Origin: Hyalella azteca
Taxonomy: Eukaryota > Arthropoda > Malacostraca > Amphipoda > Hyalellidae
Assembly (NCBI RefSeq): GCF_000764305.2
Contig: NW_025943958.1
Coordinates: forward strand, 291,359-355,358
Direction: 5' to 3'
Length of the DNA stretch: 64,000 nt
Shown: positions 8,066-58,131 of the stretch, piece after piece
How positions within the stretch are numbered: the stretch's first letter is position 1
Layout of the letters: every line of letters begins with the position of its first letter
Position numbers and translations under genes: made by a program
Notes under the pieces: model-generated
Seen by the model: only the letters and a program-made list of their open reading frames with translations
Database searches by the model: none
Told to the model about the DNA's origin: nothing

Positions 8066-9622
8066 TCACTTGAGTTCATTAACCCCAGCATTTTTGAGCA
8101 ACTGATTAAGTGCTGTGATGTACGTCTGTGCCATACGCAAGGTCTCAAATTTGGACAATTTTCGGTCGCTGCCAAGCGTAGGTACGACGCCTCTAAGTCT
8201 CTCAAATGCATCATTTAGGCCATTCATGCGCCGTCGCTCGCGTCTATTGGCAGCGTCTCGGCGTTTCCTTTTAACTTCACGGGTCACCACTCGCTGTGGC
8301 TTCAAGCTTATTCTCATGACTGACGAGGGGCTTCTGAGCACACAAGGATCTCCTGGAGACACGATGCCTCTCGAAGTCAGCAGAATTTCTGAAGGCGTTT
8401 CACTCCTGCAACGAACGGTCGATGCTTTGTTTTCGGCGGATGCAGCCGAAGATCGACAGGCGTTCACTTTTCGACCTGTTGCCCCGCTATTGCTAACTGC
8501 ACATTTCTTGCCTTGGCTCATTTGATTGGGGACATCGCTGCTTGAGGATTCATAATTGTCATCCGGGAATGATTTTCCAAATTCCAGGTTCAAAGATTCC
8601 CCACCAGTTTGCCTATTACGGTAGCTGATATTATCTTTAATGATAGTTGTGGGTTCCCTGGCTAGAAGAGCGGCTAAGCTTAATTTCTTCTTCTTCTTCT
8701 CAGGCAATCGAGCTTCATCATCGTCTCTCATTAGCGGCAAAGAAGAAATCGGCGGTAACACCGACGATGTTAGGCTGTTCGGTAACGTGCAGTTAGACTC
8801 ACTGCTTAATAGGCCATGGCTTGATTCGAAGGAATTAATACAATCCGAAGTAATATTTTGACCAGGCCAGTCATCTTCTTTCGGGGCATTTCCATCTAAC
8901 AAATGGTCAGGGAAAAAATCGTCGTAACTTACAGGTTTGTAGGCTTCACTTTTAGGTTCTTCTATTGGTTCCGATTGAACGATTGGACTTCTTACATTTA
9001 CAGAGTCTGTAATTAGCGTTGGGGGATTGACAGATATTTGTTCTCCAGGAGTAAAATATTCATAATTCGGACTGCATATTTCAGTGGGTAGAGAACGTTC
9101 TGGTTCGGTTGAAAATTTTGATGGTTTAATTACAATTTCTGAATTTACCGTCGATGGTGGCGTATCATTTGAAAAATTGTGATGGTTAGAGGTAAAATCA
9201 TTAAATTCGTATCCAGAATAAAATAGCTGAGTATCATCTGTAGTCACAGCGTTCTTTGCATAATCCCTCTGCCCAGCGGCAGTGAGGTTTTCAAAAGTCA
9301 GTGGTTGGAGTTCAACAAAATCCGGAGACACTGGAGTATATCCCTCCATGGGAGACGAAGGAGCTTCATGTCTTCGTGATTGGTGAAGTTTGGACGGAAA
9401 ATTTTGGTGAGGAGTTTCCGAAATAGCAGGACTTACACTGGAAGGCGACACACACCCATCACTGAGACCTTCAAAACAGTCATTTGAAAATGCAACGTTT
9501 GTGTTATAATCACACGAGCCCGCATCACCACTTCCAAAAAATCCACTCACATCGCCAATGTTTGTATCGACTCCACACTCCAATGGATCAAGCCAACGAA
9601 ATACACTAGCATCCAAAGCCAT
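8066..9622 (-). CDS. Atonal-family bHLH transcription factor, intronless, 518 aa
   Basis: This is a sequence-specific transcription factor of the proneural Atonal group. Such proteins bind E-boxes as heterodimers with a Daughterless/E-protein and specify sense-organ and photoreceptor precursors; that role comes from the family. A basic helix-loop-helix fills residues about 450-510, at the extreme C-terminus as in Atonal. The basic stretch [16 protein letters not shown] is followed by helix 1 ([10 protein letters not shown]), a loop with LGSDRKLSK and helix 2 ending [11 protein letters not shown], which is the Atonal signature. The N-terminal 440 residues are Ser/Pro-rich and unstructured-looking, with a lysine run at about 309-313 (possible NLS). 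The frame stays open 24 bases further upstream but begins with TTG; the first ATG is at 9622 with a G at -3 and +4, so I start there. Odd: the usual [10 protein letters not shown] is [10 protein letters not shown] here. Single exon, like fly ato. Which paralogue (ato, amos or cato) cannot be fixed by eye. Confidence 0.93.
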
Positions 9623-9801
9623 GACGATAAATCGAGGAGTTGGCAACTTTCAAGTGCACCTCTGATGGATAAACTTGCAGAGCCGAAAAGTCATCAGTTC
9701 ATCAAAGACAATTAGAAAGCTTCAACAAACCGCAGCACCAGGAGAAAGTCAGAAGCAGAAGCTTGTTTACACTTTTCTTTCTATGCATGGAGCTACTCTA
9801 C

Positions 9802-39152: not shown

Positions 39153-39656
39153 CTACTCTAGCAGTTCTTTGAGTGCATTGATGTAAGTCTGAGCCATTTG
39201 AAGAGTTTCATATTTAGACAACTTCTGGTCTCCGGACAAGCAGGGAACCACAGTGCGGAGTCTGTCGAAGGCTTCGTTGAGGCCGGTCATTCGCCGACGT
39301 TCCCGCGCGTTGGCGGCCAAACGTCTTCGCCGTACGACATCCTTTGTTAAAATTTTTGTGCGTTTCGCCTTGCGGTAAAGAAATGAATCATAGTTACAGT
39401 TGCTTGAAATCGTATTTTTAAATGAGACAGAGTGCTGTATGCTTGGTTCAGGACGGGTTCTCTGATGAGTAGAACTATAATTGTCGGAGCAATCGGTTCT
39501 GAATGGAGAACCTTCGCGACTCTTGTTAGAATTGCAGTAGTCTTTTGCCTTTTCACTGTAGCAATTATTCCAGATGCTGAGATCTTCACAAGGGACCGAA
39601 TAACCTTCCCAGGCCACGTGCGAGTAACTCAGCGGCGAGAGCCACGTAACCGCCAT
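39153..39656 (-). CDS. Atonal-family bHLH transcription factor, intronless, 167 aa (cato/amos/ato-like)
   Basis: A short proneural-type bHLH protein expected to bind E-boxes with Daughterless and act in sensory neuron specification (from the family). The bHLH occupies residues about 107-166 at the C-terminus. The basic region [15 protein letters not shown] is canonical for Atonal; helix 1 is [10 protein letters not shown], the loop has [10 protein letters not shown], and helix 2 is [18 protein letters not shown]. The N-terminal 105 residues are Ser/Asn-rich with no recognised domain. An open frame extends to 39749 but begins with GTG, so it is not a start; the ATG at 39656 has a good context (A at -3, G at +4) and lies 29 bases after a matching initiator. 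The small size and the SGDQKLSK loop recall cato, but amos or ato cannot be excluded. It lies in the same orientation as the other bHLH gene, 30 kb away. Confidence 0.94.
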
Positions 39657-39680
39657 CCTGCCTCTATGAGTCACCGCAAC

Positions 39681-39720
39681 CAACTGCCGACAACCGCAAC
39701 GGACCACGCCTTTTAAAGCC
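39681..39720 (-). promoter_or_regulatory. TATA plus initiator core promoter of the 167-aa bHLH gene
   Basis: On the minus strand GCTTTAAAAGG (TATA-like, 39709-39720) is followed by CAGTTG (39686-39681), an initiator-like sequence whose A at 39685 lies about 32 bases from the start of the TATA box. This predicts a 5' UTR of only about 29 bases before the ATG at 39656. The same CAGTTG is also an E-box, so autoregulation at the start site is conceivable but unproven. Confidence 0.55.
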
Positions 39721-42700
39721 GTAAATACGCTCTTGACGGAAACTAACACGTTCCAAAAAAAGAATTCAGCTGGTAAATTTTTTGATGAACCGTAATTGAG
39801 AACTATTTCTACTTAACTCGTACGGATAAGTTTCTTTAGAGGTAATAATAAGCATAATGTTCTCACGTTAATTACTAAAAACAACAAAGTGAAGTCAAAT
39901 TGTATATCACTTACAAGTTCGACCTGTAATGAGGTACTTTCTGTTCATCTCTAGAAGATAGAAAAGGCAGGGGAATGACATTTGGTTGAGCTATGACAGT
40001 GTACGAATAAACATGTTCTTCGCATGCGTCCGTTCAAATAAAACTCATCAGTTCATGAATCAGTTTAAGGATTACAAAGTATATTGGAGCATTAGATTCC
40101 ACACACAGCGCTTTCCGAAGTTGGCAATGTGAACTAAAGACCTGAAATTGAAGTTGAGAAAACCTTCATAAATGAAGGAAAATTAAAACCTGTTCATCGT
40201 CGTATCGTTGTACGGTTTTAACACAAATTTGCAAATCCCATCGACATTTAAATTCATCACAATCTGGAACGTACAATTAGAATGAAAAAAAAAACTTGCT
40301 TTTCTTTACCAAATGCAATTACTTTCCAAAGACGAAGAACATCATTTGCATTGCAAACCGTATCGGACACCTGAGGTCATAGAAAAAAAACTCATTTATT
40401 TAAAGAATATTATTAAAGAATAAACTGTACACAAAACAATATTCACTGCAAATGCTAAGCTTGGAAGCATCGGCGACGGTGACAGAGAAGCAAGAATGTT
40501 GTATTTTCTGATGGAAAGTACACACGAGAAAAAATGTCACAAACGAGGCAGAAACTATACCCTTTCTTCTATAAAATTATAAAAAACAAAGGGAGAAATT
40601 TCATATTAAAATGACTTATCGTAAAGGAAATAGTTCTTTATTTTCATGATTGATCCCAACGCTGCTAAAGCCTCTGCCACAAATCAAGTAGTACGTATAC
40701 CACAAAGTACGTAAAAAATAATAAATTGATAGTGCGTGTAATACTGATTGTGCGACATAAGAATTACAGTTGAGTAATAAAGTGGAATTTACTCATCTGG
40801 CACGTGGACATGACACCGTGGATAAACTAACCTATGTTTTGACAATACAAATAAATTTCTAAGACCACTCGAAAATTCGTGTAACGCACCGGCGTCGCAC
40901 CGGAATTGATCGTTTCTACCTTCTGCACAAACCCAGACAGGTTTTCCTCATATTTTCATATTTAAATCAACTTGACGCACATGACGAAATCAAATCATAA
41001 AGTTCGGGAGTACAGCAAATATGGCCAGCAACTTTAGTTTCAAGAAAATCATTTTTGATTAACCTGAATCATGCATGAAAAAAAACACATAATTACATAT
41101 GCAAAGAATGCGATTGACCCGCCTGATTTGCATACACGATTCTCAACAGAAAATTTGTCACAGCGTCGCCTGATGATAGAAAATACGATATGAATAACCA
41201 TGGAATAATTCATAAAGTTTATAGATCTAAATGAGCAGCAGAAGGAAATCAATCAGAAGGTCAGCGTGGAGCGGCAAGCAATCATCGGTGTTATCAAACG
41301 CCCAATGATACCATTATAGAAGCAATAATGTTAGAATAATACAATTTATTGGCTGCATTCTACAATTTAGAATATGTCATGACCTCATTCGCATTAGTAC
41401 AATCAGAATTTTAAAAAATCCAAAGAAGAAAATGCAGGTAAAAAAATTCTTACCTATGTTTAGGTGACACAGAAGGCTAGTCTATAAAAAACGTTACGAT
41501 GCTAGTGAACATTGGAAAGGTTCACACTCAATGAATTGCGAATGAAATACAACACTGACATGATTATATTGGACAAAATTGCATTGGCGCACTAAATTTA
41601 TTGCAAGAATTAATCAGGAATATTTAATGACACGAAAAATTAAAAGGAATTCTGAGGTAATTAATCTCACGTAATACCGGCATTGCGGTAATAAAACGAC
41701 ACGACAATAACGAATGATAAAATTAAACTTTTCAACCAGCTAAGTAGATTGATGGGAAGTAAAACCCTAATGATATTAAATTACATCCATTTTCATTGCT
41801 CAAACATGTATACAAATTGCATGAAAATACATCTTATCGCAATATCCACAAGCTACTCTTCTCGTGCTCTCATGTTTCAGCGGTTGTGTCACAACCCCGT
41901 AGTAAAAAGTTACATAGATAAAAAAACTTACGATAGATAATAATGCGAAAGTAGATAACTCAAAAAACACGAATGCGACGAAGATACCTTAGCGTTCAAA
42001 CCACTGGTTTTTAAGCTATTGCTGCGTTATCTTTCGGAGCTGTATATTAAAGTTTATAAAGTATCATTTATCCACACGTTTCAATTGCAATAACATGAAA
42101 CTGGTTACAAGCTTCTTTCGGAATTTTAAATGAGGGTGACAAGGAATTAAAAGCTACAGGTTGAAACGCAAAAGTGAAACAGAAGAGCTTCAAGCTTGCA
42201 CGGAAGCTACACGTATCGTCTGTAAAAGGGACAAATAGCAGAAATGTAAATTGCGGCATGAAAAGTTTTTACAACTTTTTAATTTTGATGTTGGCATAGG
42301 AGATTTGACCCAGTCAGGCATGCCACCGATTCTGGAAACAGAATTTTAGCACCTAGCTGGAGCTCGAACCCGCAACTCGCTGCTCTAATGGCCATAGAGC
42401 TCTCAATTAATAGTAACGTAGAAGATGTGCGTTTTTTATCATTTTACGTTACTGAGCCTGACATTTAAAACAAAATTTAGCATAGAATAAACATTACAAA
42501 TAAATTGTTGGCAAAAATGTGTTTGGCTGAGCTGGTTAACCAAGTCACAATTTACCACTTATTTTTCAGCAAAAAAGGAACAGACTTCGTTTTCCATTAT
42601 CTCGGTACACACGAAGCTGCTTTTTTTCAACAGAGCAAATTATTATTAGCAAAATTATTGTACTGAAAACATCGACATGTGGAATGATAAAACAAAACTG

Positions 42701-45916: not shown

Positions 45917-48900
45917 TTAGTAGAGGCCGCAGTCCTTCAAGCTGTTCTTCATGATCACGTCAGTCACAGCGTCGAATACGAACTGCAAAAGGATGAAGGT
46001 TCAGTTAATAATGTAAAGGAATAAAAGGAAGAACAGTCACAGCGTCGAATACGAACTGCAAAAGGATGAAGGTTCAGTTAATAAAGTAAAGGAATATAAG
46101 GAAGAACAGTCACAGCGTCGAATACAAACTGCAAAAGGATGAAGGTTGAAGTTAATGAAGTAAAGGAATATAAGGAAGAACAGTCACAGCGTCGAATAAG
46201 AACTGCAAAAGGATGAAGGTTCAGTTAATAAAGTAAAGGAATATAAGGAACAAATGCATAGAAACAGTAGGCAGTTGTAATAAATTTATCTGAAATGACA
46301 CCTGTATGGTCCTTGCTGTTTAGTTTCATATCAAGTTTGAATAAAACATTACCTATCCACTGATAGCATCGCAGAACAGAAATACGACGTCAAGTTTTTC
46401 ATGTCATTTAAATTATAACTCTAGTTGCTGATAAACTATTCTGCTGCTATTACCAGAAAAATATAATTTTCATCACATAAAATTCACTGGCTACTTTGCT
46501 AGACTCTATGACCGATATAAAATGGGAGTTCAGATGCCATAGAAATATGAAGACTTCTCAGTAGGTATATATTTGGGACTGAAGAAGAGGAATATACTCA
46601 GTATATATTGCAGCATATGTTTGGGACTGCACAGCACGAGAGAAATATTTTTTGGCACTGCACTGCACGCATATTTTTTGGCACAGGGAAATAATTTACC
46701 TGGATGTTGTTAGTGTCAGTGGCGCAGGTGAAGTGAGTGTAGATGTCTTTAAGTCCTCTCCTCTTGTTAAGATGCTCGAACTTGTCTTTGATGTAAGTCG
46801 ACGCCTCAACATAGTTGTTGTTGCCTGTTAAGAGAAAATGTATCATTTGGTGCCTTGGAAAGATATAATCATTGTTCATTACACAGCCTTAGCTACTCCA
46901 CTACGAGTATTTTTCTAGGCAGTTAAACTCATAGCACACCCGAGCGGTTTATTTGCAAAATCAAGCCCTTAGTCAGACGACTGAAAAACGACGTGAAGCG
47001 TTAGGAAAATCTAACAGAATGTTTTTCTAAATCTGCTTATTAGCTAGGCAGACTAAATCTGCTAACTAGCTAGGCAAACTAAATCTGCAAACTAGCTAGG
47101 CAGACTAAATCTGCTAACTGGCTAGGCAGACAAAATCTGCTAACTAGCTAGGCAGACTAGATAAGAAATACTTGTTGATACCAAACGTAGAGTGCAAGAC
47201 TCACCAAGATAATCACCACAATACTCACCCTGAACCTCACCAAGTGACGAGTGCAAACTCGCCACAATATGCACTTTAATACCCACCAGGAGACTCGTCA
47301 GAATACTCATCATGATTCCAGAATACTTACCAGAACGCTCGCCAGAATACTTACCAAATTTCGAGAGCATAACTCACCAGGGTACTCAGGGAAGCAGATG
47401 GTGAGAGGAGAGCGAGAGATCTTCTCCTCGAAGAGATCTTTCTTGTTGAGGAAGAGGATGATGGAAGTGTCCACAAACCATTTGTTGTTGCAGATCGAGT
47501 CAAAAAGCTTCATGGACTCGATCATGCGGTTCATTTCTTCATCCTCTGCTAATACAAGATCGTAGCCTGGAATACAGCAAACAATTATCCACCATTCATA
47601 AAGGTTGTAATACAATGCAAGCACTAATCGAATTTGAAATAATAGAAACCATCATCAATTCATTAAGTAAGAGCTATTAATTTCCTACTTAGGCATATTA
47701 TTTATATGTCTAAGTAGGAAATGATCGAGGAGAATATGATCATTGCCTTCACAACAATTATTTACTTACGGTTACACAAGAACAGTCATTCATCTAGACC
47801 AAAACAATCAGCAATCAAAAAATTATTTCTCATAATAATCTCTTACAATATAATTACCGCACACAATATGACAATCCAACTTCAATATCGACACATAAAC
47901 CTATTAGATTAACGAGTCGGCCATCAAAACTCGCTTATGGACTGATAATCGATAAGATTAATAATTGAAATAAGTTCTCAAGACCGTGCCAGCGGTCTCA
48001 CCTGACATGGCCACCACAAATATGATGGCCGTGACCCCCTCGAAGCAGTGAATCCATTTTTTCCGCTCAGACCGCTGCCCTCCAACATCAAAAAGTCTGA
48101 AATTTGCAAAATATCACATAGAAGCATCAAAGAATCAATGTAAACTGGCATTAAAAATCAATTAAAAAACACAGTTAAATGATGTCTAGAAAGGATAGTA
48201 TATAATTATAAAACATCCGATACAAAAATGGTTGATTGATGTCTAGAAATGTCGTGTATTTGTATTTAAAGATCTAATACAGGGTGTTTCAGAATTAAGT
48301 AACCCTTTTAATTTGTTAATAAATAAAAAACTAAGAACGTTATGAAGTTGAAACTTGTTTTATTTAAAAGAAACAATATTACCATGAAAATGTTCTTCTT
48401 TTAAATAAAACAAGTTTCAACTTCATAACATTCTTAGTTTTTTATTTATTAACAAATTAAAAGGGTTACTTAATTCTGAAACACCCTGTACAAACATAGT
48501 TGAATAACTCCTGGAAAAGTTATATGTATTAATGATCAAAAATAAACACAGTTAAATGATGCATAGAAAGGCTTGTATTTTTTGTATTAAATGATTCAAT
48601 ACAAACAGAGCATATGAACTCTCTCTTGTAACATACTTGAAATTGAGCTCCCTGATCCAATACAAAGAGGTCCCAATACCCCAATATAACCAGACTGACT
48701 ATGTAACAAAGAGATAATATGAAGGGAGACCCAAAAATAAACGGACCGACAGTATGGTGAGCGAAGTTTTAGTAGTACGGCATTCTCCTAGTATGTGCAT
48801 ATGTTACTGACATCCCTCAGCGTGCCACCCTTCACGGCTCTAGATGCCCATGTTCCACTACCGCAAATATTTTTGTGGCCCTTCTTTTGGGCGCTTCTCG

Positions 48901-51900
48901 TTTTTTGATGGCTGATTTTCGTGAGTAACGTGCTGCCATCTAATTTTGCTTTCTTTTGTGAAAAACTGGCAAGGAAAAGCTACAGACAACAAACCAGGGG
49001 TTATGCTATGGGGAGAACTTAAGTTTTGCATTTTCAAAAAAAAGGGAAAATGCCATTTGATGATCAACCTCGCTCAGGTCGTCCTTCCACTTATCGTACT
49101 GAAGGAAATGTTGAAGAAATTATGGACCTAACACCTGAATATCGACTTAGAAGTATAGATGAGCAGGCGGAACTGTCCCAAGTGACTTTGAGTTCACTCC
49201 AGAAAATTCTGACAGAATATTTTTCCTCAATAAATAAACCTTTAAAAAATTAGTCCTTTTTTGGGGGATCCCCCCACATATGCAGGCAGTTCTCCCATAG
49301 GTGACATACTTGAAGTTGAGCTTCCTGAAGGAGAAGTTGGTCTCAACAATGCCGGTAGTTTTGACACGGGTGCGCAGGACGTCCTGTTGCGTAGGCACGT
49401 AGTTGCTGCGCGAGATGCGGTCCAGGGCGTTCAGGTAATACGAGGCGCTGTCGTTCAGCTGGTACTCTCGTGACCGTCTGCCAAGAGATGAACAGTATTA
49501 GATATCGATGATAATAATAATAATATTAATAATATCAGGTAATACGAGGCGCTGTCGTTCAGCTGGTACTCTCGTGACCGTCTGCCAAGAGATGAACAGT
49601 ATTAAATATCGATGATAATAATAATAATATTAATAATATCAGGTAATACGAGGCGCTGTCGTTCAGCTGGTACTCTCGCGACCGTCTGCCAAATGATTAA
49701 CACTATTAAATATCAATAATAATAATAATATTAATAATATCAGGTAATACGAGGCGCTGTCGTTCAGCTGGTACTCTCGTGACCGCCTGCCAAGAGATGA
49801 ACAGTATTAGATGTATTAAATATTGATGATAATAACAATAATATTAATAATAGAGATAAGGTAAACGTAGAGATGAAATGTATTAAATATTGATGATAAT
49901 AATAATAACAATGATAATAATAAGAGAGATAAGGTAGACGATAATAGGATTGAATATTTGAATATTGATTGCGCCCAGTATTTGGAATGGAGTAAATAGA
50001 ATTGAATATCAATAATAAAAGTGTGGAAAAGGTAAAAGGAATTGAATATTAAGAAATTTAGAAATAACCCTGGCACTTGAAAGAAAGTTAACAGGATTGA
50101 ATATTTAGAAATAACTCTGGCACTTGAAGGAAAGTTGACAGGATTGAATATTTACGAATTATATTTACAGGATGCATAAAAATCGGTAAATCATTAAAAT
50201 TAAAAATGAAAGTGATGACATTTAATTTTATACATAATAAGAATTTAAAATTGACCTTTGAGATTAGTAAGTGGATTTAAATTAATAAATGATTGACATC
50301 TAAAGCAAGATAAATGACTCAAAATAGATACAATAAAAATGAATAAAAAACACATGCGTCATTCAATCTTTTGAATGTTGGGTACAATCTGTTAGTACTG
50401 TATTCTTCCAATTATTAATCAAGTTAATGAAACAACTGATAGACGTGACACCGCCATTAAGCCTGCGGATGACGGAAATCACCTACATTTGAAATCACAG
50501 AAAGAGAAATAGTTAACTAAGATTAAATGGCTGCAGGGTGTCCAAAAAAAATGACACAGGTCAAATTTAAATTGCTTGTCAGCAACAAACGTGATCAAGA
50601 ATCCTTGCAAAGTCAATTTGCAACAAGCGGTACAGACACAGGTCCTTCATACTCCTACCAACGCTAGATTGAACAAAATTCATAATTGCATCTTGAACAA
50701 GATAGGAGCACACAGTAATTGCATTACTGTATTTAAATGGCATATATTTGAAAAACTAAAAATTGCATACTAAAATAATTATTTATGTTTCACATATTTA
50801 ACTACCAAACCTTGCCAATTTTAGGTTGCAACAATACCGACTGGAAGCAATGCAGAATACCAGCATCATGCCACAGTTTAGTACCATAAATCACATGGTA
50901 CTAATGAGATTAGATATTTAACCACTGCACATATTTACATGGCCACACTAAATATTGCACATAGTATTTAACCATACTAAACAAGACCCACTGGAAGCAA
51001 TGCTGCACACCAGCGCTGTGCCACAGTCTGATACTATGAATCACATACTAATGAGCTTAGTTATTTAACCACTGCACATATTTCAGCATACTAAACAATA
51101 CATAGCCAAACTAAATAACTAAACCATACTAAGGCACGGGAAACAAGACGCACTGGAAACAATGCTGCACACCAGCGTCGTGCCACAGTCTGTTCATGAT
51201 GTGTGCCAAGTCTAGCGTCATCTCCCCCTCCTCTGTGGCACTCGCCATAGTGAAGAACTGCCGTGCATCGTCCTGTCAGAACAAAAAAACGCCTAATAGT
51301 GATACGGATACAGGATTATAGTATCATCCTAGTTATAGTTATTCTCATTAGTATGATAATAAATAACTAATTAATTTAATTAATAAATTATTAAAGCCTA
51401 AATATTATTATGAACTACATTACAATATGTCATTGGGTTGTTTTCATAAAGTAATTACAAAACGTAATGCAATATATGACACAACTAAGGTATTTTTTAA
51501 ATACAGTTGTTGCTAGCAGGCTATGGTGAATATTGTGATAAAATCCATGGTTATTTTATTATTCATTGTTCTGCACAATCTTCTAATTAACAAAACTACC
51601 ACCATTCCACCAGAATTTAATTTTAACAAGTTTTTTTTTATGGAAGAATAATGAACCAAACACAACAATATGGTTTATCACAAGTACCTACACCATATTC
51701 TTTTGAGGAACTGCACAATTGGTTTAAATTGTACTATCATTTTATCCCATTCATATTTGCTAGTTCCTTAAAATGCTTCAATTGCATTAATTCCATTTTT
51801 CATTTATTGAGCTTACACCTATGGTCCAGTAATGTTCTTTGAATTTATTTTAATATAGGTTTGAATTTATTTTAAAAATAGACATTTTTCTAATTGACAG

Positions 51901-52729
51901 AAGTTAATATTTTGTTTAAAATTTACAACATTAAAAACTATAATTTATAATTAATAAAAATATATATATATATAGGTATAATTTCAAAGCTTACAGTTCT
52001 TGAGGGATCACCAAACTCAATCTTGAGTTGCCCCATAGCCCGTATGATGGCCATGAGGCTCTGAATGGTGTTGCTGTAGACGACTCGTCTGTATTGTTCA
52101 CACTCGTCTTGTGAGTATCCAGTTTCATGGATGATCTTCATCTGTTTCACTATTGTGCTCTTGCCACTCTCACCAGCCCCTGAAAAACATATTGATCAGT
52201 AGCTGCTCACACATTTATAGGCATTAATTTACAAATCAATAATTTTTTTATTGTCTAGTTTATTGCAAATTTGAAAGTAGTTAAAAAATTGAAAGATGAA
52301 AAAAGTTATCACCAGCTTTAAGACAGATTTTTTATACATTTTTTTGCATGTTTAATCCAGCAAAACCATCCATGCAAAAGAGGTTGAGCAATGATACAAT
52401 AAAATTTGATGACAAAAATGTATATTTCTGAGTCATTATCCAATTTAAATAATAACTTATGAGAAAGTGATATGGTACAGTTGCCTCAAGAAAATTTTGT
52501 GATAAAAACTTTGTTCTACATACATTGCCTTGGGAAGTGGAAATACCTATGAGTATATAAATCAAACAAACTAAGAAATCAATACCACAAAATTCCCGAG
52601 ATACTTACCTAACAGTAGTAGCTTGACCTCCCTTTGAGCCTTTTCTCCTTCCATCCTTAGGTCTTTGTCAATTTTTTTGCTCCTTTCCAGAGCTTCTCTG
52701 TCAGCAGTTGTACTTACAGCGCAACCCAT
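45917..52729 (-). CDS. Galphai: G protein alpha subunit, Gi class, eight exons, 355 aa
   Basis: Alpha subunit of a heterotrimeric GTPase that couples seven-helix receptors to inhibition of adenylyl cyclase; in arthropods it also orients asymmetric division with Pins/LGN (family knowledge). Coding exons, all GT-AG: 52609-52729, 51995-52179, 51154-51272, 49310-49477, 48002-48096, 47378-47566, 46700-46824, 45917-45982; they sum to 1068 bases with matching phases. Visible motifs: MGC start (myristoyl G2, palmitoyl C3), P-loop GAGESGKST (41-49), switch I RVKTTGI (R179, T182), DVGGQ (Q205), NKKD (270-273), TCAT (325-328). Identity as Gi rather than Go rests on [28 protein letters not shown] and the LKDCGLY tail. 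C352 at -4 is the pertussis-toxin-type cysteine, absent in fly G-alpha-i. Odd: last residue Y (usually F in Gi), FVVAMS where FCVALS is usual, and introns carrying duplicated splice junctions (see separate entries). Confidence 0.97.
45961..46252 (-). repeat. Four tandem copies of the exon 8 acceptor junction in G-alpha-i intron 7
   Basis: Units of 73, 73 and 74 bases start at 45961 (real), 46034, 46107 and 46181. Each includes the polypyrimidine tract and acceptor CCTTTTGCAG followed by 22 bases of exon 8 (FVFDAVT codons). All acceptors keep the AG. Copies differ by a few substitutions (TTTGTA, TTCTTA). Confidence 0.9.
47035..47160. repeat. 26-bp minisatellite in G-alpha-i intron 6
   Basis: About five units of ctaactagctaggcagacta-type sequence, next to the donor-like array. 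No coding content. Confidence 0.8.
47195..47378 (-). repeat. Array of 5' splice-site-like repeats just inside G-alpha-i intron 6
   Basis: After the real donor CCCTG|GTGAGT at 47378 the intron holds a degenerate tandem repeat of about 20-24 bases, each resembling an exon end plus donor: GTAAGT twice, then GTGGGT, GTGAGG, GTGAGT and GTGAGT, interleaved with CTGGCGAG-type variants. At least six near-consensus donors lie within 190 bases. Confidence 0.75.
47681..47721. other. Short hairpin in G-alpha-i intron 5
   Basis: TTTCCTACTTAG pairs exactly with CTAAGTAGGAAA, extended by CATA/TATG, with a 7-base loop. The stem (about 17 bp, one mismatch) is shorter than a typical miRNA precursor. Confidence 0.5.
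48278..48490. mobile_element. Palindromic mariner-type MITE in G-alpha-i intron 4
   Basis: Long near-perfect terminal inverted repeats of about 100 bases begin CAGGGTGTTTCAGAATTAAG and end with its complement, flanked on both sides by TA, the Tc1/mariner target duplication. No coding capacity. It interrupts a diverged tandem duplication (the cacagttaaatgatg units at about 48172 and 48547). Confidence 0.75.
48722..49276 (+). pseudogene. Decayed mariner transposon, transposase N-terminal relic, G-alpha-i intron 4
   Basis: Plus-strand translation around 49026-49253 gives [20 protein letters not shown] followed by [20 protein letters not shown], the mariner DNA-binding HTH region (family motif EPRSGRPS). 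Just upstream, in another frame, [13 protein letters not shown] matches the preceding mariner segment, so at least one frameshift is present, and the DDD catalytic part is missing. Ends resemble mariner termini (GGGAGACCCAAAAATAA on the left; TTTTTTGGGGGATCC on the right). It is antisense to G-alpha-i and ends about 33 bases from the exon 4 donor. Confidence 0.7.
49432..49850 (-). repeat. Four tandem copies of the exon 4 acceptor junction in G-alpha-i intron 3
   Basis: A unit of 104, 104 and 101 bases starts at 49432 (real exon), 49536, 49640 and 49741. Each contains the acceptor TTGGCAG, the first 46 exon bases (encoding [15 protein letters not shown]) and then an ATT-rich filler. All four keep the AG. 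The period is not a multiple of three, so retaining an upstream copy reaches a TGA in the next one. Confidence 0.9.
49850..50820. other. G-alpha-i intron 3 middle: diverged repeats, no exon
   Basis: 49850-50170 holds degenerate units around TTGAATATT and CTGGCACTTGAA, each repeated two to four times. 50171-50820 is AT-rich with no exon visible; 50533 onward carries GGGTGTCCAAAAAAAATGAC, a possible transposon terminus. Confidence 0.4.
50842..51192 (-). repeat. Tandem copies of the exon 3 donor junction in G-alpha-i intron 3
   Basis: The last 39 bases of exon 3 plus donor (51154-51192) recur at 50992-51030 and 50842-50880, spaced 162 and 150 bases. Each copy continues into related intron sequence. 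Donors read GTGCGT (real), GTGGGT and GTCGGT. The copies still translate as [12 protein letters not shown] and [12 protein letters not shown] in the exon frame, with synonymous changes at HD in the farthest copy. Confidence 0.85.
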
Positions 52730-56221: not shown

Positions 56222-56259
56222 CTGTCTCTTATACACATCTAGATGTGTATAAGAGACAG
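56222..56259. other. Nextera mate-pair junction adapter (artefact)
   Basis: CTGTCTCTTATACACATCT, the 19-bp Tn5 mosaic end, is followed directly by its reverse complement, forming the exact 38-base junction adapter used in Nextera mate-pair libraries. The mosaic end is an engineered hybrid, so this is not a natural insertion. Sequence on the two sides may not be contiguous in the genome. Confidence 0.97.
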
Positions 56260-58095: not shown

Positions 58096-58131
58096 CTGTC
58101 TCTTATACACATCTAGATGTGTATAAGAGAC
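58096..58131. other. Nextera mate-pair junction adapter, second copy (artefact)
   Basis: Same adapter as at 56222, lacking the last two bases. Its left flank, 57831-58094, is an exact copy of 61539-61802, as expected if a mate-pair read was assembled through the junction. Confidence 0.97.

Follow-up and report, generated by a model that had tools for sequence, protein, structure and literature searches.

In a 64,000-nucleotide stretch of the genome of the amphipod Hyalella azteca (contig NW_025943958.1, positions 291,359 to 355,358 of the forward strand; referred to below, at its full length, as the window), splice junctions of a gene for G-alpha-i (Gai) lie within tandem arrays whose repeat unit spans the exon-intron boundary, and decoy copies of these junctions stand in the introns. 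The arrays are real, more widespread than an earlier note on this DNA had held, and of a known kind, the mirages of amphioxus, here occurring in an arthropod. Very probably, the arrays of Gai are mirages that arose as near-neutral by-products of frequent minisatellite birth, which the gene tolerates since its authentic exons remain whole. Observed directly were the arrays with their copies and the presence of such arrays in further genes, about as often as in the sequence around them.

The minus-strand Gai gene is intact, with a spliced reading frame of 355 amino acids (aa) in eight coding exons with 14 junctions. Chains of G(i) alpha-1 in PDB matched the Gai protein across residues 1-355, its full length, and the exon edges were reproduced by spliced alignment with a Panulirus protein. 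Among the best 120 of 7842 matches in a protein search, identity reached 90% at the top, and crab and lobster sequences (Petrolisthes, Panulirus) followed at 84-85%. A G-alpha-i protein tree gave Gai no more than a position beside decapods. The gene model is as follows.

45917..52729, minus strand: coding part of Gai, 8 exons, from the spliced open reading frame, the match to GNAI1 in PDB and the spliced alignment
52609-52729, 51995-52179, 51154-51272, 49310-49477, 48002-48096, 47378-47566, 46700-46824 and 45917-45982, minus strand: Gai exons 1-8, with the stop codon in the last

Probes of 60 nt on each side of all 14 Gai junctions were compared against the whole window, and clear tandem copies that included the exon edge were found at three of them, the exon 3 donor and the exon 4 and exon 8 acceptors. 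At the exon 8 acceptor, the probe matched three extra copies (93-98%, E of 1e-22 to 3e-28), and the extra 73-bp units were 93-97% similar to their native counterpart. At the exon 4 acceptor, three extra full copies (89-99%) and one intron-only copy were matched, with the extra 104-bp units being 90-99% alike to the native unit. The two extra copies at the exon 3 donor were older (77% and 69%; E of 8e-16 and 4e-8). Copy age thus varied within the gene: copies at the two acceptors differ from their native units by 1-10%, and those at the exon 3 donor have diverged by 23-31% over the probed stretch. The arrays and sites are listed below, with those rows that combine programs resting on Tandem Repeats Finder (TRF) and probe matches or site counts.

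45961..46253, minus strand: exon 8 acceptor array, unit of about 73 bp (51 nt of intron and 22 nt of exon), 4 copies (TRF, probe matches)
45982 (native) and 46055, 46128 and 46202 (decoys), minus strand: exon 8 acceptors
49431..49855, minus strand: exon 4 acceptor array, unit of about 104 bp (57 nt of intron and 47 nt of exon), 4 copies (TRF, probe matches)
49477 (native), 49581, 49685 and 49786 (decoys) and 49869-49919 (intron-only remnant), minus strand: exon 4 acceptors and array remnant
50793..51213, minus strand: exon 3 donor array, donors 162 and 150 bp apart
51153 (native), 50991 (decoy, GTGGGT) and 50841 (decoy, GTCGGT), minus strand: exon 3 donors
47190..47380, minus strand: exon 6 donor minisatellite, degenerate 12-bp unit of approximately CTG/GTGAGTATT (TRF row 47318-47356, site counts)
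47377 (native) and 47354, 47330, 47286, 47228 and 47204 (donor-like, at least 7 of 9 matches), minus strand: exon 6 donors
48628..48655, minus strand: single short duplicate of the exon 4 donor, with a decoy donor at 48636 (CAA/GTATGT); 28 nt, 89%, E of 3e-4

The earlier note had placed four of the 14 junctions in boundary-spanning arrays. Three of these stood, but at the fourth, the exon 6 donor, the probe gave a single weak straddling match (37 nt, 76%, E of 0.006); within 221 bp at this donor, six donor-like sites including the native one matched the consensus at 7 or more of 9 positions, compared with 0.51 expected in shuffles. A fifth junction, the exon 4 donor, is affected through a short copy that was absent from the earlier list. 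This copy sits 673 bp downstream of the native donor, with other DNA in between, which we take to be mariner-like. Both 5' and 3' exon boundaries of Gai are affected and the authentic exon is intact, as in mirages. In five random windows with the same dinucleotide make-up only 0.01% of positions were straddled by a duplicate, and the arrays are therefore not due to chance. The DNA between the native exon 4 donor and its copy is a presumed mariner-like transposase remnant at about 48700-49290, the ends of which did not align in a comparison of end repeats. Intron 4 also holds (48280-48488) a long inverted repeat with nearly identical arms of about 90-100 bp and little spacer.

The rate of straddled exon edges was then set against the array content of their surroundings in a sample of 21 loci with 208 exon edges, drawn from three conserved families (G-alpha, chaperonin Cpn60_TCP1 and MCM) rather than from the whole genome, at E ≤ 1e-3. 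Of the 14 Gai junctions 4 were straddled; the three other G-alpha loci had none among 30, the chaperonins 7 among 116 and the MCM loci 3 among 48. Over the whole sample this makes 14 of 208 edges, spread over 8 of the 21 loci, and the array cover of each edge's own region predicted 15.4; boundary-spanning arrays were present in 7 of the 20 loci besides Gai, on different contigs. Because observed and expected numbers were so close, there was no sign that junctions are targeted, and a preference of arrays for junctions, considered as a candidate, was not supported in these loci. The straddled fraction of a locus tracked its local array cover (Spearman 0.83). Array cover amounted to 5.8% in six other regions, 8.2% in 13 gene regions including that of Gai and 9.2% in the eight MCM regions. 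It did not peak at the edge: on the intron side it was 6.8% over the nearest stretch (0-9 nt), compared with 9-10% at 60-149 nt and 5.3% at 300-400 nt, and on the exon side it had dropped to 1.6% at a depth of 31-60 nt. Arrays at edges, a cover that lacks an edge peak and the drop inside exons support a single cause, namely a genome prone to forming tandem arrays, with selection keeping exon interiors clean. In the 21-locus sample, which does not span the genome, edges were accordingly straddled no more often than chance, the outcome which the earlier note had named beforehand as speaking against it. From its three readings, the only one to gain support is that of a by-product of a minisatellite-prone genome.

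The sample was assembled as follows. Family searches returned G-alpha loci (25 rows), nine chaperonin loci (61 rows) and eight MCM loci (24 rows, all used), and 4 of the 61 chaperonin rows were dropped before counting (C310:27699-27884, a second identical copy of an exon region; C4411; and two of C4049). The G-alpha loci used for junctions besides Gai were a Gq gene on C4188, a Gs gene on C3677 and a partial gene on C104, with junctions hand-picked from two alignments each, so that some junctions may be inexact. No spliced alignment passed the threshold for C1152 and C1492, and these two served, together with C3612, as background; C3925, C2937, C4306 and C4489 were left out. Edges of eight chaperonin loci and of the MCM loci were partly ends of profile matches, not exact sites. 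A first chaperonin control, restricted to confidently called junctions (1 of 56 straddled), missed those exons in which the profile match extended into an array and was for that reason replaced by a control over all exon-match edges (7 of 114), with CCT4 taken from a reference-guided model (3 of 18). The three straddled MCM edges, in the set fetched last, fell in two loci (one and two edges), and one of the two at the C3220 locus is uncertain.

CCT4 lies on contig C2089, and its top protein match was the T-complex protein delta of H. azteca. One intron in its model was mis-called (2444/2896 in locus L024, in gene direction), and therefore two of its 18 junctions are unsure.

CCT4 arrays, contig C2089: 45-bp unit at an acceptor, about 5 copies; unit of about 42 bp at that exon's own donor; unit of about 90 bp at a later donor, 3 copies

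CCT5, named by protein search, carried a donor array with a unit of about 21 bp as judged by eye; a second CCT5 donor that had been flagged initially was not straddled at the exact site and was excluded from the count. Three further chaperonin loci had one straddled edge each. The chaperonin locus on C1035 presumably encodes a protein resembling mitochondrial Hsp60. A chaperonin exon region occurs twice in C310:26001-35500, 2877 bp apart and identical over the 120 bases tested, as a result of either recent duplication or assembly error. The Gq-type gene (C4188:312001-330000) has a late exon in two alternative-looking versions, KQDDVAAREFILQIY... and GPVKDAIAAREFILRIF..., and a single open frame at C3612:353716-354720 matched G-alpha over 335 codons and therefore represents an intronless G-alpha gene or a retrocopy.

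Within the window, TRF reported 61 rows (overlapping rows counted), and 12.5% of positions outside Gai were straddled by a local duplicate. At E thresholds of 1e-2, 1e-3 and 1e-5, 5, 4 and 3 of the 14 Gai junctions were straddled; the rate outside the gene predicts 1.75, 1.74 and 1.63 (binomial P = 0.023, 0.086 and 0.218, respectively). When the junction set was rotated rigidly along the window, these counts were reached in 4.2%, 12.7% and 27.5% of places. Gai itself is rich in arrays; at its own rate, 3.5, 3.2 and 3.05 straddled junctions were expected (P = 0.26, 0.40 and 0.62), and the junction rate of 29% (4 of 14) was close to the intron cover of 25% at E ≤ 1e-3.

In an array-rich genome, ordinary tandem duplication, through slippage or unequal exchange, would at times yield units that span an exon-intron boundary. 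Such a duplication would keep a full-length exon edge and send the extra junctions into the intron, so that, with the authentic edge intact and the copies intronic, it could drift. If the spliceosome normally picks the authentic junction, most copies would in consequence be near neutral and decay with age. The geometry was reproduced by simulation: in 10,000 donor duplications the copies lay downstream and the first junction was the full exon edge, with 0 exceptions. For acceptors the mirror image applies. The earlier observation that donor arrays run downstream and acceptor arrays upstream of an intact exon thus holds as a pattern, but it is not special, since tandem duplication forces it; decoys lie in introns because of this geometry and not as a selected pattern. 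The claim that the units keep GT or AG is likewise correct for all nine decoys outside exon 6 and unsurprising (P = 0.23 if bases drift at the divergence of the copies, with no selection), and some of the 12-bp units at exon 6 have lost the GT. Selection for AG or GT in the decoys, tried as an explanation, was unneeded. The Gai decoys are most likely neutral by-products.

Several observations weigh against this account. Gai was denser in straddled edges than the other loci (4 of 14 versus 10 of 194; Fisher P = 0.009) and the densest among the larger loci; this is tempered by the selection of the locus as a striking one and by random deals of the straddled edges, in 10% of which one locus received at least four. 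At the loosest threshold, 5 of 14 Gai junctions were straddled (binomial P = 0.023, rotation 0.042), and none of the 30 junctions of the three other G-alpha loci was straddled at E ≤ 1e-3. Straddled edges were also somewhat clustered, with 8 or fewer loci affected in 9.7% of random deals. The comparison of edges with cover is partly circular, because the local cover counts the junction arrays themselves. Finally, five of the eight exonic changes in d2, one of the exon 3 donor copies, fell at third codon positions, which may be a weak hint of past constraint.

One alternative is that the decoy junctions are functional and that competing sites tune Gai output, for instance through exon 8 decoys that replace the usual C terminus. 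The decoy acceptors of exon 8 have a 3' splice site almost identical to the native one (pyrimidine fraction of 0.71-0.76 versus 0.71), and at exon 6 five decoy donors agree with the 9-position consensus at 7 or 8 places, compared with 8 for the native donor. Use of an exon 8 decoy is computed to give 350 aa, composed of native residues 1-335 or 1-341 followed by a new tail, and all three decoys place the stop codon in the last exon, which should by the general rule escape nonsense-mediated decay. Use of the exon 4 or exon 3 decoys is computed to give fragments of 182-183 aa and 149 aa, respectively. However, the H. azteca CCT4 protein, as far as its database record goes, reads as natively spliced across its three mirage junctions and so seems to ignore its decoys, the retention of AG and GT is as expected without selection, and unrelated housekeeping genes carry similar arrays. 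Reverse transcription-PCR of Adh3 and globin transcripts in amphioxus likewise suggests normal splicing with no interference by mirages (PMC3087553). We consider a functional role unlikely on these grounds. Such arrays occur at about 5 to 7% of the sampled exon edges in this arthropod. The broader proposition that a lasting fraction of its splice junctions as a whole carries tandem decoys and that some of these are used, such as those of Gai exon 8 to give an altered C-terminal tail, appears rather doubtful.

A second alternative, that junctions or Gai itself attract duplication above background, for example by transcription- or splicing-linked breakage, draws on the density of Gai given above, on its count at the loosest threshold (5 versus 1.75 expected) and on the 3 of 18 junctions of CCT4, but it agrees poorly with the near identity of observed and expected edges, the lack of a peak at the edge, the match of junction rate and intron cover within Gai and the unaffected G-alpha loci, and is quite unlikely. 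That copies were invented, or haplotypes placed end to end, by short-read mate-pair assembly is very improbable: the window holds inverted pairs of a 19-base adapter-like sequence (56222-56259 and 58096-58131, the second pair cut short), which we take to be Nextera mate-pair junction adapters, and at the exon 4 acceptor a single position out of 104 separates the first decoy unit from the native one, but private substitutions and indels distinguish the copies, those of the exon 3 donor are 23-31% diverged, and different contigs carry the structure, which recurs in 8 of the 21 loci. One amphioxus mirage was apparently misassembled in the draft genome (PMC3087553).

The earlier note knew of no described case, but the mirages of amphioxus are a precedent of the same structure. 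They are described in Adh3, the globins BflGb6 and BflGb9, troponin C and PGBD5 (PMC3087553, PMC3902484); in the paper on PGBD5, two exons of a single lancelet gene bear repeats, and troponin C is cited as a further case (PMC3902484). In both systems a tandem unit spans the exon-intron boundary. H. azteca differs in being an arthropod and not a cephalochordate, in having four to five affected junctions in one gene and in having been measured against an array background, whereas the amphioxus mirages come with reverse transcription-PCR data. Length instability between haplotypes or somatic cells counts among the traits of mirages; the H. azteca arrays are known from one assembly. No report of arthropod mirages was found in the open-license literature, as judged by titles and the openings of abstracts. 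A review describes tandem genomic duplication as a route of intron gain, which resembles the present case in making extra splice signals inside a gene; there, the duplicated signals, in an AGGT-bearing exon segment that comes to flank the new intron, serve to form that intron out of an exon, whereas the Gai copies sit in existing introns (PMC3443670). Compared with ordinary intronic or intergenic minisatellites, the Gai arrays are of the same kind as others in the window, but their units take in the exon edge and, with it, the full splice signals. In another amphipod, Trinorchestia longiramus, tandem repeats are the largest repeat class, at 6.18% (PMC7062882). A paper on G-alpha evolution covers deuterostome genes (PMC5896119).

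Elsewhere in the window, two minus-strand open frames with a basic helix-loop-helix domain were detected at 8069-9649 and 39156-39812 (Pfam HLH, E of 1e-18 and 4e-20); we presume both to be atonal-like.

These results extend mirages from cephalochordates to a crustacean, at a measurable rate. Extrapolating from the 21 loci, the H. azteca genome may hold many near-identical competing splice sites, and such cases would allow direct tests of splice-site choice, of the cost of cryptic sites and of duplication as a source of new introns. Where arrays sit on exon edges, the gene models of such genomes can err. If some of the decoys are indeed used, nature would in effect have set up, on a genomic scale, an experiment in how the spliceosome discriminates authentic splice sites from near-identical neighbors.

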